Positions 4,335 through 13,809 of a DNA stretch of 41,362 nt are shown here, in pieces (position 1 is the stretch's first letter; every line of letters begins with the position of its first letter). Source of the stretch: a virus; the IMG/VR virus record IMGVR_UViG_3300048686_000091, positions 1 to 41,362 of that record. One strand, written 5' to 3'. Both the position numbers and the translations under genes were made by a program. The notes beneath the pieces were generated by a model. That model ran no database searches. It had not been told where the DNA came from and saw only the letters and a program-made list of their open reading frames with translations.

Positions 4335-4492
4335 AGCCCCCAAAACATATAATAAAACTAGGACAAGACGCTATTAACTTATGGAAACTACAACAAGTAT
4401 TGGGGAAAACTAATGAAACAAAAAAGAATAACACCAGATTGGACAGGGGCTTTATGCGCCGAAACAGACCCAGAACTATTCTTTCCAGATAA
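4331..4492 (+). CDS. Possible small basic protein overlapping whiB, 53 aa
   Basis: ATG 4331 overlaps the previous stop. The first 27 codons fill the space before WhiB and encode a helix (IIKLGQDAINLWKLQQVLG). The remaining Arg/Lys-rich residues lie within the first 80 bases of whiB, so they may simply reflect that gene. The overlap is longer than others here, hence moderate doubt. Confidence 0.35.
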   Translation: MKPPKHIIKLGQDAINLWKLQQVLGKTNETKKNNTRLDRGFMRRNRPRTILSR

Positions 4493-4661
4493 AACAAATA
4501 TTAGTAACGGATATTTAGCTAAGAAAATATGTAACAGATGTTTTTTGAAACAGAAATGTTTTGAGTATGCGATTAAAGATTGGGAGTTGAAAGGTATTTG
4601 GGGTGGCACGAGTGAGCGTGAGCGTTGGGAAATAAGGGCAGGGAGGAGAAAAGCGTGTTAG
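4413..4661 (+). CDS. whiB: WhiB-family Fe-S transcription factor, 82 aa
   Basis: The four cluster ligands are present: C15, C40xxC43 and C49. The GIWGG turn (residues 61-65) is followed by TSERERWEIR and a basic tail, the standard WhiB order at usual length. WhiB-like proteins bind a 4Fe-4S cluster and act with the principal sigma factor; phage copies (such as that of mycobacteriophage TM4) interfere with host WhiB2 control of septation. The family is essentially actinobacterial, so it is the best host indicator here. The last seven bases overlap the next gene. Confidence 0.93.
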   Translation: MKQKRITPDWTGALCAETDPELFFPDKTNISNGYLAKKICNRCFLKQKCFEYAIKDWELKGIWGGTSERERWEIRAGRRKAC

Positions 4662-8779: not shown

Positions 8780-8984
8780 CCTCTTCCTCCTCTTCATATA
8801 AATCATCTGGTCTATGTTCGCCATCATATTTATAATTACCTGTTTCATCATCTTCAACATAAATATGTACAGTGATTTGTTTATCTAACCCTATCATATC
8901 TATATGTATTTCGTCAGTTAAATCTTCTTCATCTAGTGGTATAACTGTTCCGTCTAATGGTCCTCCAACAAATTCTCTTCTCAT
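8772..8984 (-). CDS. GGPLDG-type phage protein, 70 aa
   Basis: The N-terminus RREFVGGPLDG is a hallmark of a small conserved phage protein of unknown function. Strands follow (ITVHIYV; GNYKYDG) and the end is extremely acidic (YEEEEEDE). The acid tail is encoded by the same bases that form the ribosome site of the next gene. It overlaps the Ntn-hydrolase gene by four bases. Confidence 0.75.
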   Translation of the reverse strand: MRREFVGGPLDGTVIPLDEEDLTDEIHIDMIGLDKQITVHIYVEDDETGNYKYDGEHRPDDLYEEEEEDE

Positions 8985-9514
8985 CTTGACTGCTTTATAT
9001 GTACAAAAGGTGGTGCTGTGAACACATTATTTTTGGCAGCTATCTGCATTGCTTTACGCCAGTTTGCACCATTCTGTAAAGCACCTATAGCATAGGCTGC
9101 TCCAGAACCTATGCCATAAATGTTGTCATCTCTAAGAAGAACAGAGAGAGTCTCATCTATTTCAAATATTCTTCCACCAAGTGCTATAAGGAATATGAAG
9201 TCTGGTTCATCTGATTCTTTATCAGGAGTGTAACCGTTTACTGCTAAACAATGTCTCATACTTGGTACAACTTCTGCAATCATAAAATGGTATAGGTCTT
9301 TGTATGCGGCAGGTGTTGGTGTTGGTGGTTTCCAAATGTGTTGAATGATGTCGCAAGGTTGTGTTGTTCCTGCTCCTGCTATTAAATATTTGCCACGTTT
9401 AGTAATCTTTTGCATATTAGGATGTGAATATGTTCTTCCACCATCATCTGTTACACGTGAGTCTGCTACAAGTAGACAAGAATCTTTTGCTTGTAGTCCT
9501 ATAATGGTTGTCAT
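8981..9514 (-). CDS. Proteasome/HslV-like Ntn hydrolase, 177 aa
   Basis: The start is ATG 9514, in an ATGA overlap, giving MTTIIGLQAKDSCLLVADSRVT. After removal of Met, Thr1 would be the nucleophile; Asp17 (VADSR) and a Lys at 35 (NMQKI; Lys33 in HslV or beta subunits) complete the expected catalytic set, and the IAGAGT and GIGSGAAYAIGAL stretches match the beta-subunit fold. It would form a threonine protease, perhaps a ring, or act as a peptidase alone. Targets are unknown. No ATPase partner gene is seen nearby. Confidence 0.8.
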   Translation of the reverse strand: MTTIIGLQAKDSCLLVADSRVTDDGGRTYSHPNMQKITKRGKYLIAGAGTTQPCDIIQHIWKPPTPTPAAYKDLYHFMIAEVVPSMRHCLAVNGYTPDKESDEPDFIFLIALGGRIFEIDETLSVLLRDDNIYGIGSGAAYAIGALQNGANWRKAMQIAAKNNVFTAPPFVHIKQSR

Positions 9515-9681
9515 TTGTCTAAGTACTCCACATCTATACCACATTTACAGCACATATCATCTATATAATTGTTGTGCCATTTGTGTTCACAATCATCAAC
9601 ACCTATAGTTATGATGTCGTTATAATATTCTGCTCGTCCTACTATGTCTTTTTCAAATACGCATTGTTTACATTGTTTCAT
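9511..9681 (-). CDS. Zinc-binding small protein, 56 aa
   Basis: I start at ATG 9681 (MKQCKQCVFEKD) rather than at upstream Met codons that lie deep in the preceding gene. The product has CxxC near the start, CEHKWHNNYID in the middle and CCKCG near the end, suggesting one or two zinc sites. It overlaps the preceding gene by 14 bases and the following by four. No family recognised. Confidence 0.65.
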   Translation of the reverse strand: MKQCKQCVFEKDIVGRAEYYNDIITIGVDDCEHKWHNNYIDDMCCKCGIDVEYLDK

Positions 9682-9901
9682 TTTTACCTCTTTCAATAAA
9701 TCTTTCATCATCGTCAGAAGTACATCCATATATATTATTTGCACAAACATATACAGGTTTATCGTAAGCAACAGATATAACTATTTTTAAAGTATTAAAA
9801 AACCAAGGGGCATAACAAATACAACAATAAGCATTTAAATTAAACTTATCCCAAGTTATATTATCTATCTTATCCCAGTATTCTTCTTTAGTTACTATCA
9901 T
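9668..9901 (-). CDS. Cys-rich hypothetical protein, 77 aa
   Basis: The central YCCICYAPWFF and VCANNIYGC provide a CxxC and a spaced Cys pair, possibly a zinc ribbon. The N-terminus KEEYWDKIDNITWDKF is helical. Start overlaps the primase stop (ATGA). Not recognised. Its position between primase and an Ntn hydrolase gives no further clue. Confidence 0.65.
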   Translation of the reverse strand: MIVTKEEYWDKIDNITWDKFNLNAYCCICYAPWFFNTLKIVISVAYDKPVYVCANNIYGCTSDDDERFIERGKNETM

Positions 9902-10530
9902 TTGATTTTTTCCTTAAACCAATCAGCACCCTCACGAAGAAACACATCATTAACATCCTTATTCTCAGGCAAATTAACAACAACAGCATTATTTAAATCT
10001 TCTTTAATACGTTTAGCTAATTCCATACCAGGATTACGTCCATCTTCTTTAACATCATTATCAGCAAACACAAAAATTCTTTTATAACCCTCAAACATTA
10101 TAGGAAAATGTTCTTTCCACTGTGTTACACCAGCTACACCTACAGCAGGTATACCACATAGCCCTGACAAAACCATAGTATCTACTTCACCTTCACAAAT
10201 ACACATTGTGTCTGTATCTATAATTAAATCTTTAACATTAAACATCCCAATTTTTTGCCCAGTAGGCCAAATATATTTAGGTTGACCACCATCAATCTTA
10301 CGAAACTTTATACCAACAACACCAGTAGGAGTAATATATGGAATACTTAAACAACCTTCAGCGTGTTCGTGTCCTGGTGCAGGATTATTAACTGTACCTA
10401 GCAGGAATGTAACGGCCACTTCTTTGCTTATTCCCCTTGACCTGAGGTAAGAGACTGTCTCTGCGTTTATGGTTTCGTGATATTTTGCTGCGGTTTCCGT
10501 TAGTAATTGTTTCTGCTCTGCTGATAGCAT
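9898..10530 (-). CDS. DNA primase TOPRIM subunit, 210 aa
   Basis: The product starts with a helical region containing SYLRSRGIS (DnaG-like), then IPYITPTGVVGIKFR, the TOPRIM Glu in CEGEVDTMVL (E113) and FADNDVKEDGRNPGMELA (D157, D159). These are the core catalytic motifs of DnaG primases. The zinc finger is on the separate upstream gene, which overlaps by 143 bases. GGAAGGAG about 12 bases before ATG 10530 suggests separate translation. It makes RNA primers with the DnaB-like ATPase encoded upstream. Confidence 0.85.
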   Translation of the reverse strand: MLSAEQKQLLTETAAKYHETINAETVSYLRSRGISKEVAVTFLLGTVNNPAPGHEHAEGCLSIPYITPTGVVGIKFRKIDGGQPKYIWPTGQKIGMFNVKDLIIDTDTMCICEGEVDTMVLSGLCGIPAVGVAGVTQWKEHFPIMFEGYKRIFVFADNDVKEDGRNPGMELAKRIKEDLNNAVVVNLPENKDVNDVFLREGADWFKEKIK

Positions 10531-10792
10531 TTTTAAAATTCACTCCTTCCTTTTTCATTATCAGTTCATAAACATCTCCATAGATGTCACATACGAAACA
10601 GCTATAGATTTGTTCCCGCAAGTTTATGGTTGCTGATGCTGTTGCATCATCGTGGATTACACATTTAAGTGGACTCCACGAGGAACCGTTACGTATCTTT
10701 CCACCGTAGTATATGACTACGTTTTCAAGGTCGTGTTTATTTTGGTCTATACTGCTCACTCCATTGTTTAAGTGTTTGTATAACCCAGCCAT
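10388..10792 (-). CDS. DNA primase CHC2-type zinc-finger subunit, 134 aa
   Basis: VIYYGGKIRNGSSWSPLKC is followed by C44-H47 and C65-C68 (CVIHDDATASATINL; SCFVCDIYGDV), the CHC2 fold that recognises template in DnaG-type primases. The last 47 residues overlap the TOPRIM gene and are basic and low in pattern, so the conserved part ends at about residue 95. ATG 10792 overlaps the upstream nuclease by 56 bases; GTG 10759 is an alternative start. Confidence 0.8.
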   Translation of the reverse strand: MAGLYKHLNNGVSSIDQNKHDLENVVIYYGGKIRNGSSWSPLKCVIHDDATASATINLREQIYSCFVCDIYGDVYELIMKKEGVNFKNAISRAETITNGNRSKISRNHKRRDSLLPQVKGNKQRSGRYIPARYS

Positions 10793-12125: not shown

Positions 12126-12503
12126 TTATCTTATGAACTGTGGTTCACATTGGTCTGGTGTGCCTTTAGGACTTGGACAGAAATATCCTTTCCAAGGTTT
12201 AGCAGCATCAGCTTTTGATTTACGGAATGTCATCTCACCGTGCTTACAGGTTTTTGCACCATCAGAAGATGATGATTGTGCACGTGGCTGTTCAATAGGT
12301 GTAGCACCAAGGGCTTCTTTCAAAGTTCCTTGCGCATTGTACAGTGTTTCAACTGCATTGATTTCTGGAGTAACATTCGCAATAGCATTTAATGCTGTAC
12401 GAATATCATCTTCACTATAAGAGTAAAGATAAACGTTAATTAAAGAACCTTGTGAGGTTTTAAAATTAAGTTGTGTCTTAACTCCTGGTGTGTCTGCACT
12501 CAT
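12126..12503 (-). CDS. Actinophage ssDNA-binding-like protein with zinc tail, 125 aa
   Basis: The N-terminal half (KTQLNFKTSQGSLINVYLYSYSEDDI) is strand-rich. A Ser/Gln linker leads to CKHGEM and GYFCPSPKGTPDQCEP, giving C86, H88, C109 and C119 as probable zinc ligands. I recall this C-terminal module from actinophage replication regions. A role with single-stranded DNA is inferred only from position between the ATPase and nuclease genes. ATG 12503 has AAGGA nearby. Confidence 0.6.
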   Translation of the reverse strand: MSADTPGVKTQLNFKTSQGSLINVYLYSYSEDDIRTALNAIANVTPEINAVETLYNAQGTLKEALGATPIEQPRAQSSSSDGAKTCKHGEMTFRKSKADAAKPWKGYFCPSPKGTPDQCEPQFIR

Positions 12504-12517
12504 TTTGTTTTCCTTCT

Positions 12518-13180
12518 CTATAGAGCAGCGAGTGGGTCATACTTTACTGCCAACTCCCCGCCATAAGCGTGACAGTAATCCTTAACTGAACAAGATTTAC
12601 ACATCATACCAAGATTTGGTAAAAATATTTCTTGTTCAACAGCTTTGTTGAATTGTTTAAATAGTTCTGTAAATAGTTGTACTGTCCAACGCGACAAGTC
12701 CCCTGCATCTTCCATAGTACCCTGTCGGGCATTATAGAAATAACCTTTTGTTGGTCGCATTCCTGTTATCTGTTGAACAGCACAAGCATATAATCCTAAT
12801 TGCATATTAGTATCTGGCATATAGGCACCAGCTTTATAATCTATTACAGCAATGTCACCATCAGGTGTTACAGCTATTAAATCTATAAATGATTTAACAA
12901 GTACATCACCAAACATAACATTGTATTCTGCTTCTATTTGTGGCACATCATTATAATTCCATATTGACCATTTGTTGTTTCTCCACCATTGAATAAAATC
13001 ATCAACCATTTTTGGCCCATTGTCTTGCCACCAAATATCATTTTCCTTATCCGGATATGCTTTGGTGGCACGACCGCCAGCACGCCAAGCAGACGGGATA
13101 GTATCTGTCTCAGCGGCTTTTGCATCAATCAATGATTGGAAATGCGTATTCCAATACTTGATTGATAAATCTTTAGACAT
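12518..13180 (-). CDS. Cas4/RecB-like Fe-S nuclease, C-terminal part, 220 aa
   Basis: VLVKSFIDLIAV (D100), DIAVIDYKAGAY (D114-x-K116) and NMQLGLYA (Q127) are the RecB-type nuclease motifs. C194xxC197x5C203 matches the three C-terminal cluster ligands of the Cas4 family. The usual N-terminal region with the fourth Cys is missing and instead is encoded at 13535-13720. The start is ATG 13180 behind AAAGGG; GTG 13186 is possible. Likely a 5'-3' or end-processing exonuclease in recombination, if both parts assemble. Confidence 0.85.
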   Translation of the reverse strand: MSKDLSIKYWNTHFQSLIDAKAAETDTIPSAWRAGGRATKAYPDKENDIWWQDNGPKMVDDFIQWWRNNKWSIWNYNDVPQIEAEYNVMFGDVLVKSFIDLIAVTPDGDIAVIDYKAGAYMPDTNMQLGLYACAVQQITGMRPTKGYFYNARQGTMEDAGDLSRWTVQLFTELFKQFNKAVEQEIFLPNLGMMCKSCSVKDYCHAYGGELAVKYDPLAAL

Positions 13181-13343
13181 ATTCACCCTTTGTTATTTTT
13201 AGTACTGATTGTATCAAAACTTTGTTAGTTAGTTTACAACATTCTGGATGTGAGAAAAAAGGTAGTTGTTCAATTTCTTTACTTATCTTATTTCGTAACT
13301 CTTTTTCAAATGAGTTATTTGTTTGATAAGAAAACTTAATCAC
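13173..13343 (-). CDS. Small helical protein within the split nuclease locus, 56 aa
   Basis: A GTG at 13343, inside the previous gene's end, opens a frame ending at 13173 over the start of the C-terminal nuclease gene. The product has FEKELRNKISKEIEQL (amphipathic helix), HPECCK and a second helix, a layout like small actinophage proteins with LRxxIAxEIE. Tight overlap on both sides and the conserved-looking helix support it. No function known. Confidence 0.5.
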   Translation of the reverse strand: MIKFSYQTNNSFEKELRNKISKEIEQLPFFSHPECCKLTNKVLIQSVLKITKGEYV

Positions 13344-13551
13344 AATCTGGTTCCTCTAATGTTGGTGCAGTAGCGGAGCTACCACAAGCGGAGCAAAACA
13401 TATCAAGAAAATACATTGATATTTCGTTGTCTTCAAACATTACTTTAAGATTCCAAACTTTACAACCACACACACAAACGTGTGTTGGTATTCCTCTTAA
13501 ATCAAATTCTGGTTTTGTTCCGTCAGGTTTTAATTCACTGATGTGTTTCAT
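13336..13551 (-). CDS. Zinc-ribbon protein within the split nuclease locus, 71 aa
   Basis: ATG 13551 (MKHISELKPDG) lies 17 bases inside the N-terminal nuclease frame. CVCGCKVW and CSACGSS supply two Cys pairs about 30 residues apart, like a rubredoxin or zinc-ribbon fold, around a strand-rich centre (FEDNEISMYFLDMF). Upstream Met codons would overlap further and are less likely. The protein may be an inserted gene or a partner of the split nuclease. Confidence 0.65.
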   Translation of the reverse strand: MKHISELKPDGTKPEFDLRGIPTHVCVCGCKVWNLKVMFEDNEISMYFLDMFCSACGSSATAPTLEEPDCD

Positions 13552-13720
13552 AGTTATCCCGTAGATATTGTTCAATGGCTGCGTGAAATGCTTGTCCACC
13601 GATGAAGTACCAAGCTGGTGTTTGTGGTGCTTGTAGTTGGCGTTCTAGTTGCCAAGCCTTGCCACATTTTACCCAGGAGGTGAATGATGAAAAACTTCTG
13701 TGCCCGATTGTTGGTTCCAT
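13535..13720 (-). CDS. Cas4/RecB-like nuclease, N-terminal part, 61 aa
   Basis: HRSFSSFTSWVKCGKAWQLER, then PAWYFIGGQAFHAAIEQYLR, is the N-terminal signature of the Cas4/RecB-like actinophage nuclease: S-x-x-x-x-x-x-CG-K and GG-x-A-x-H. C19 corresponds to the lone N-terminal Fe-S ligand. The frame stops after 61 residues and the rest of the enzyme is at 12518-13180. The ATG falls at the predicted transcription start, with no ribosome site, so it is probably translated leaderless. Confidence 0.75.
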   Translation of the reverse strand: MEPTIGHRSFSSFTSWVKCGKAWQLERQLQAPQTPAWYFIGGQAFHAAIEQYLRDNYETHQ

Positions 13721-13727
13721 AAGATAA

Positions 13728-13809
13728 ACAATATCACATTGTTGTAATTTCGGTCAACGACACACCCTAAGTGTGTCAGTTGACAAATATTTGACAATAG
13801 GATTATACT
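13728..13809. promoter_or_regulatory. Symmetric divergent promoter with large dyad operator
   Basis: Plus strand: TTGACA (13780-13785), 18 bases, TATACT (13804-13809). Minus strand: TTGACC (13757-13752), 18 bases, TATTGT (13733-13728). An inverted repeat GTCAAC-GACACAC (13753-13765), CCTAA loop, GTGTGTC-A-GTTGAC (13771-13784) spans both -35 boxes. A regulator bound there would control both directions. A second TTGACA at 13791-13796 lies 11 bases from the first. Confidence 0.8.

Follow-up and report, generated by a model that had tools for sequence, protein, structure and literature searches.

Organization of the nuclease locus

The window, i.e. the whole stretch of 41,362 nt of viral DNA that was analyzed, contains four minus-strand ORFs in the order (13,720 to 12,518) N-terminal half of a nuclease, zinc-ribbon protein, 56-aa protein and nuclease core, with each gene overlapping its neighbor. 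The positions of these ORFs (Table 1) are those given in a first-pass annotation of the same DNA. An independent 41-kb contig (L003/L069) carries the same four genes in identical order.

Table 1. Features of the split nuclease locus in the window.
Feature	Position	Strand	Characteristics	Basis
Nuclease N half, 61 aa	13535..13720	-	HRSFSSFTSWVKCGKAWQLER with C19 (codon 13666-13664); GGQAFH with H46 (codon 13585-13583)	
Inserted gene 1, 71-aa zinc-ribbon protein, family F1	13336..13551	-	C26, C28, C53 and C56 invariant	
Inserted gene 2, 56-aa protein, family F7	13173..13343	-	GTG start; SD-like site AGAGGA, dG -5.8	
Nuclease core, 220 aa	12518..13180	-	D100, D114-x-K116, Q127xxxY131; SD-like site GGGTGA, dG -5.9	
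Core cysteine codons	C194, 12601-12599; C197, 12592-12590; C203, 12574-12572	-		
Overlap of N half and zinc-ribbon gene	13535..13551	-	17 nt	ORF coordinates
Overlap of zinc-ribbon gene and 56-aa gene	13336..13343	-	8 nt, GTGATTAA	ORF coordinates
Overlap of 56-aa gene and core	13173..13180	-	8 nt, ATGTCTAA	ORF coordinates
Promoter-like element	13728..13757	-	TTGACC...TGTGATATTGT; ends 8 nt before the N-half ATG	Consensus match and recurrence

Close relatives share the extended -10-like sequence of the promoter-like element, TGTGATATTGT, 8 nt ahead of their N-half ATG, and looser TGTGNTATNNT-like forms are present in other relatives. This placement would make the mRNA of the N half leaderless.

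The locus is neighbored by genes for a DnaB-like helicase, a primase and RusA. The DNA primase is likewise contained in two overlapping ORFs (9898-10792, minus strand, overlap of ~140 nt), a 134-aa part matching phrog_360 and a 210-aa part matching phrog_849, both of which are DNA primase profiles. The ORF directly downstream of the core (12126-12503, minus strand) shows a C-terminal match to phrog_364 (ribonucleoside reductase class II), limited to the last 60 positions of the profile, which probably represents a shared tail and not a reductase. A WhiB gene is present at positions 4446-4628 of the window, as in actinophages.

The two ORFs correspond to consecutive parts of a Cas4/RecB-like nuclease

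The core matched PF12705 (PDDEXK_1; 5e-12) and the exonuclease profile phrog_1870 (1e-41; positions 77-296 of 313), while its match to the Cas_Cas4 profile fell below the curated cut-off. The N half matched phrog_69 (4e-10) and positions 14-67 of phrog_1870 (2e-8). The two ORFs cover consecutive stretches of phrog_1870, and this actinophage Cas4 exonuclease profile is matched over its length by the two chains together.

The N half carries the first cysteine (C19) and the histidine of the GxxxH motif (G42-x-x-x-H46), both of which are invariant in 13 diverse relatives. The D, DxK and QxxxY residues and the three C-terminal cysteines (Table 1) are all located on the core, and are invariant in the relatives as well. 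The intact actinophage Cas4-like proteins, an alignment with which was recommended in the first-pass annotation, have the same set of motifs as the two halves combined. All sequence features of the iron-staple PD-(D/E)XK nucleases are present, i.e. the RecB motifs GxxxH, D, (D/E)xK and QxxxY, plus one N-terminal and three C-terminal cysteines. They are not found on a single chain, as is usual for these enzymes, since the cysteines and the active site are divided over two ORFs in the window and at 165 other loci. The first-pass annotation had described one Cas4/RecB-like nuclease with its first cysteine and the remaining three on separate polypeptides. This description was correct and applies to 166 distinct loci, a recurrence far beyond chance, but it overlooked the conserved active-site histidine (H46) on the N half, and the active site is therefore divided too.

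No cas genes were detected among the 20 window ORFs scanned. The neighbors examined are phage replication genes and not cas1/cas2, which together with a CRISPR array accompany CRISPR-associated Cas4.

The fold was analyzed using an intact relative, the single-chain protein L299, as a stand-in for the split form. The model of this protein had a mean pLDDT of 92.8, and over its entire length (residues 1-263) it gave structural matches to ACE1 (Z 17.4), AdnA (17.4), AddB (15.1), Dna2 (13.6) and Cas4 (13.6). The split point, placed by sequence alignment, falls in the loop that connects helix 36-53 to helix 60-80 in the L299 model. The full-length model of a naturally re-fused homologue (L224; see below) is good for the core only, with residues 1-53 at a pLDDT under 50, because the N-terminal block was out of register with the intact rows in its alignment.

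Judging by the family, the predicted cluster would be of the [4Fe-4S] type; [2Fe-2S] and Zn are known from relatives. Crystal structures of Cas4 proteins show that the cluster has four ligands and is completed by the N-terminal cysteine (PMC4176176), and any single cysteine change in SSO0001 resulted in insoluble protein (PMC3466216). In some Cas4 proteins cutting is unaffected by loss of the cluster (PMC4176176), so the cluster is possibly dispensable.

Distribution of split, intact and re-fused loci

IMG/VR was scanned three times with the halves and their alignment and a fourth time starting from a distant relative, and the loci were classed by a six-frame HMM search. In 166 distinct loci the N half and core were found in different frames of the same strand, within about 1 kb of each other. 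Eight loci of the same set had a single ORF: seven belong to cultured actinophages and the eighth, L224, is nested in the split clade. Compared to its split sister L227, L224 (represented by one contig) has a clean 16-nt deletion, which creates a single 253-aa protein. All loci recovered in the scan begun from the intact side were intact (80/80), and more distant actinophages, including mycobacteriophages, also have one nuclease gene. For the few cores found without an N half, the sequence reaches less than 300 bases upstream.

The split is also present in cultured phages. OX376641 (Planktophila phage LanE43AprF5) contains the full direct-overlap split, and the N half present in OX376640, a sequence assigned to phage AprE7, is identical to that of OX376641. 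Both phages lyse 'Ca. Planktophila' LanE-43; the paper describing them mentions neither Cas4, an exonuclease nor a split gene (PMC10202952). A search of open-access papers found no description of split Cas4/RecB phage genes. No homologues were confirmed in host genomes in a scan of genome contigs. The split probably arose once, though the rooting of the core tree depends on the long branches that lead to the intact phages.

Selection and co-inheritance of the two halves

Both nuclease halves are under purifying selection. In all pairs compared, insert-bearing pairs included, dN/dS was 0-0.20 for the N half (0.09-0.17 in pairs with the window) and 0.04-0.17 for the core. The values for the inserted genes were 0.25-0.31 for the zinc-ribbon gene in window pairs, and 0.24, calculated from 8 changes, for the 56-aa gene. 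The distances of the N half and core were strongly correlated (r=0.93 over 54 loci), and none of 2000 permutations gave a value as high.

The first-pass annotation had named two findings that would speak against a genuine split: an N-terminal frame lost or degraded in relatives, and an assembly error joining two loci. The first is contradicted by the dN/dS values of the N half, and the second by the number of distinct loci (166) and by the sequenced isolates. Together with the strong purifying selection on both halves, these data leave a practically negligible probability that the split is an artefact of assembly or sequencing, or a decayed gene.

The core, with its D, DxK and QxxxY motifs and three cysteines, might be thought to work alone, the N half being a relic or having taken on a different function as a small protein of its own. 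This is quite unlikely, given that the first cysteine and the GxxxH histidine of the N half are invariant across divergent relatives, that this half is under purifying selection, and that the halves are co-inherited. In addition, the conserved histidine of Cas4 is a proposed metal ligand and is essential in SSO1391, whose H80A variant is inactive (PMC4176176).

The junction between the halves

At 91 of the 166 loci the halves overlap directly, and the N half nearly always has the ATG of the core within its final codons. At the other 75, one to four small genes are located between the halves, and 183-976 nt separate the N-half stop from the point where the core match begins.

In all 91 direct-overlap loci the core is in the +1 frame relative to the N half. 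This would be expected if programmed +1 frameshifting or hopping produced a full-length nuclease in these relatives, the split being only apparent, and L224 suggests that a fused form is viable. However, these loci share no slippery site, there being 24 different codon-stop-base contexts before the N-half stop. Nearly all of them have the core ATG inside the overlap, and SD pairing at this ATG is more frequent than at random ATGs (57% vs. 32% at dG <= -4). Furthermore, a single shift cannot fuse the halves in the window and at the 74 other loci with 1-4 whole genes between them, where the N half is equally constrained. Frameshifting is thus a very unlikely explanation.

Introns and inteins are common interrupters of phage genes, and the halves could in theory be joined by RNA or protein splicing (an intron or a split intein). 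Splicing is extremely improbable in this case, since there is no Rfam match in the window, the gap is taken up by coding genes that overlap one another, an intron would not fit into the direct-overlap relatives, and the ends of the halves, inspected by eye, lack intein-like residues. A tRNA search found none.

The inserts were sorted into 19 families, which include some ORFs called mechanically that might not be real genes. The zinc-ribbon family (F1) occurs at 69 loci and comes first at most of the loci with inserts, while F2 (45 loci) adjoins the core in most cases. In other lineages the usual genes are replaced by unrelated inserts (F6, F14 and F18). The 56-aa family (F7) was found at two loci only, the window and L003. 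The 56-aa protein showed no homology to F2 or F18 by hhalign, and its weak matches to Lin-8 and phrog_14389 were taken as noise. The largest insert, in L172 (region 1374-2521; 976 nt), contains a 107-aa F6 gene and a gene for a 218-aa protein.

The zinc-ribbon family is also found elsewhere: 69 of 79 further loci have no nearby nuclease, and in OX376641 its gene lies on the other strand, about 5 kb away. In eight loci (L332, L333, L336, L341, L355, L366, L380 and L395), which are the non-nuclease zinc-ribbon loci with neighbors listed, the gene is located between an MTCIVA-type ORF and an ORF resembling a subtilisin-type protease, the latter named by eye. The MTCIVA-type ORF resembles the HslV-like peptidase of the window (8981-9544).

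According to the first-pass annotation, the inserted genes may encode partners with a role in assembly or regulation of the enzyme. The regular positions of the zinc ribbon and F2 in the gap and the purifying selection acting on the inserts are in line with this idea. However, more than half of the split loci are insert-free, unrelated families act as substitutes in some of the others, the 56-aa family is limited to two loci, and the zinc ribbon mostly occurs away from the nuclease. Neither insert is required to maintain the split. A role for the zinc-ribbon and 56-aa proteins as dedicated partners is therefore unlikely, and the inserted genes, though themselves under selection, look like mainly passengers.

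A tree of 81 core sequences required at least eight changes of insert state, six of them forced by well-supported branches (the bootstrap was not fully settled). Junction alignments revealed insertions and deletions of whole genes, whose edges fall on the start/stop overlaps. Short repeats were observed at both edges of the cassettes: AATGA in the comparison of L094 with L103, and AATGG/AATAG in that of L186 with L205. This suggests that cassettes are exchanged at short homologies within the overlaps.

A proposed two-chain nuclease

The split and its conservation, the selection on both halves, the family and fold, and the turnover of cassettes are established from the sequences. On this basis we propose, with a probability of about 0.8, that the product of the locus is a two-chain iron-staple PD-(D/E)XK nuclease of the Cas4/AddB/AdnA type, with halves that are started separately. 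An ancestral single gene would have been cut at a surface loop that joins the helix carrying GxxxH to the one after it, and the halves then kept as overlapping genes of one operon, each with its own start. The small N chain would provide the first cysteine and the GxxxH histidine, and the core the D/DxK/QxxxY residues and the other three cysteines; the predicted cluster, like the active site, should therefore span two chains. After translation the chains would co-fold, with the metal cluster and active site completed between them. The assembled enzyme would act like the intact actinophage Cas4-family exonucleases, themselves characterized at the sequence level only, and its predicted role in infection would be DNA-end processing in replication or recombination. 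As the halves are free of the need for one reading frame, small genes can come and go at the start/stop overlap.

The split might additionally be a control device. The nuclease would stay inactive until the Fe-S cluster is built between the chains, DNA-end processing would depend on cluster assembly and the chain ratio, and some of the gap cassettes would tune this ratio or the assembly. We regard this extension as rather doubtful.

If the two-chain reading is correct, the locus represents a natural split nuclease in which two separately translated chains share a predicted metal cluster and a predicted active site, an arrangement kept across a large phage clade. It would permit one to test directly if assembly of an iron-staple cluster can occur in trans between chains; phage isolates with a culturable host are available for this purpose, as is a natural re-fusion for use as a control. 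The seam also offers a view of small-gene gain and loss in phages, since genes can enter a split protein at a start/stop overlap and leave its function intact. Annotation pipelines will probably label the 61-aa half as a hypothetical protein and the core as a truncated nuclease.

Comparison with known systems

The closest counterparts are the actinobacteriophage Cas4 exonucleases (phrog_1870/phrog_69), such as gp70 of Mycobacterium phage LHTSCC, gp55 of Rhodococcus phage Jester and gp36 of Cutibacterium phage P104A. They share the family, the motif order (C, GxxxH, D, DxK, QxxxY, CxxC-x5-C) and a nearby DnaB-like helicase gene, but are encoded by one gene (264-313 aa), with no split among the 80 intact IMG/VR relatives.

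Cas4 proteins (SSO0001, Pcal_0546), including solo Cas4, resemble the split nuclease in their fold, in the one N-terminal and three C-terminal cysteines that hold an Fe-S cluster, and in the conserved active-site His, Asp, Glu/Asp and QhxxY. They differ in being single chains with a role in CRISPR adaptation or a solo role, and the identity in the structure comparison is about 20% or less. The closest solved folds (Z 14-17), with the iron-staple layout, are those of the AddB and AdnA nuclease domains and of ACE1, an Argonaute-associated Cas4 family protein. Each of these is a single chain or a domain of a helicase-nuclease, and its gene is unsplit.

The topoisomerase of phage T4 (gp39/gp60) is a similar case of one ancestral enzyme chain distributed over two phage genes. 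A homing-endonuclease gene is associated with the gp39/gp60 split, whereas none was recognized at the split nuclease. In contrast to the T4 enzyme, the split nuclease has an active site and a predicted metal cluster that are divided between the two genes, and its seam accepts varying small genes.
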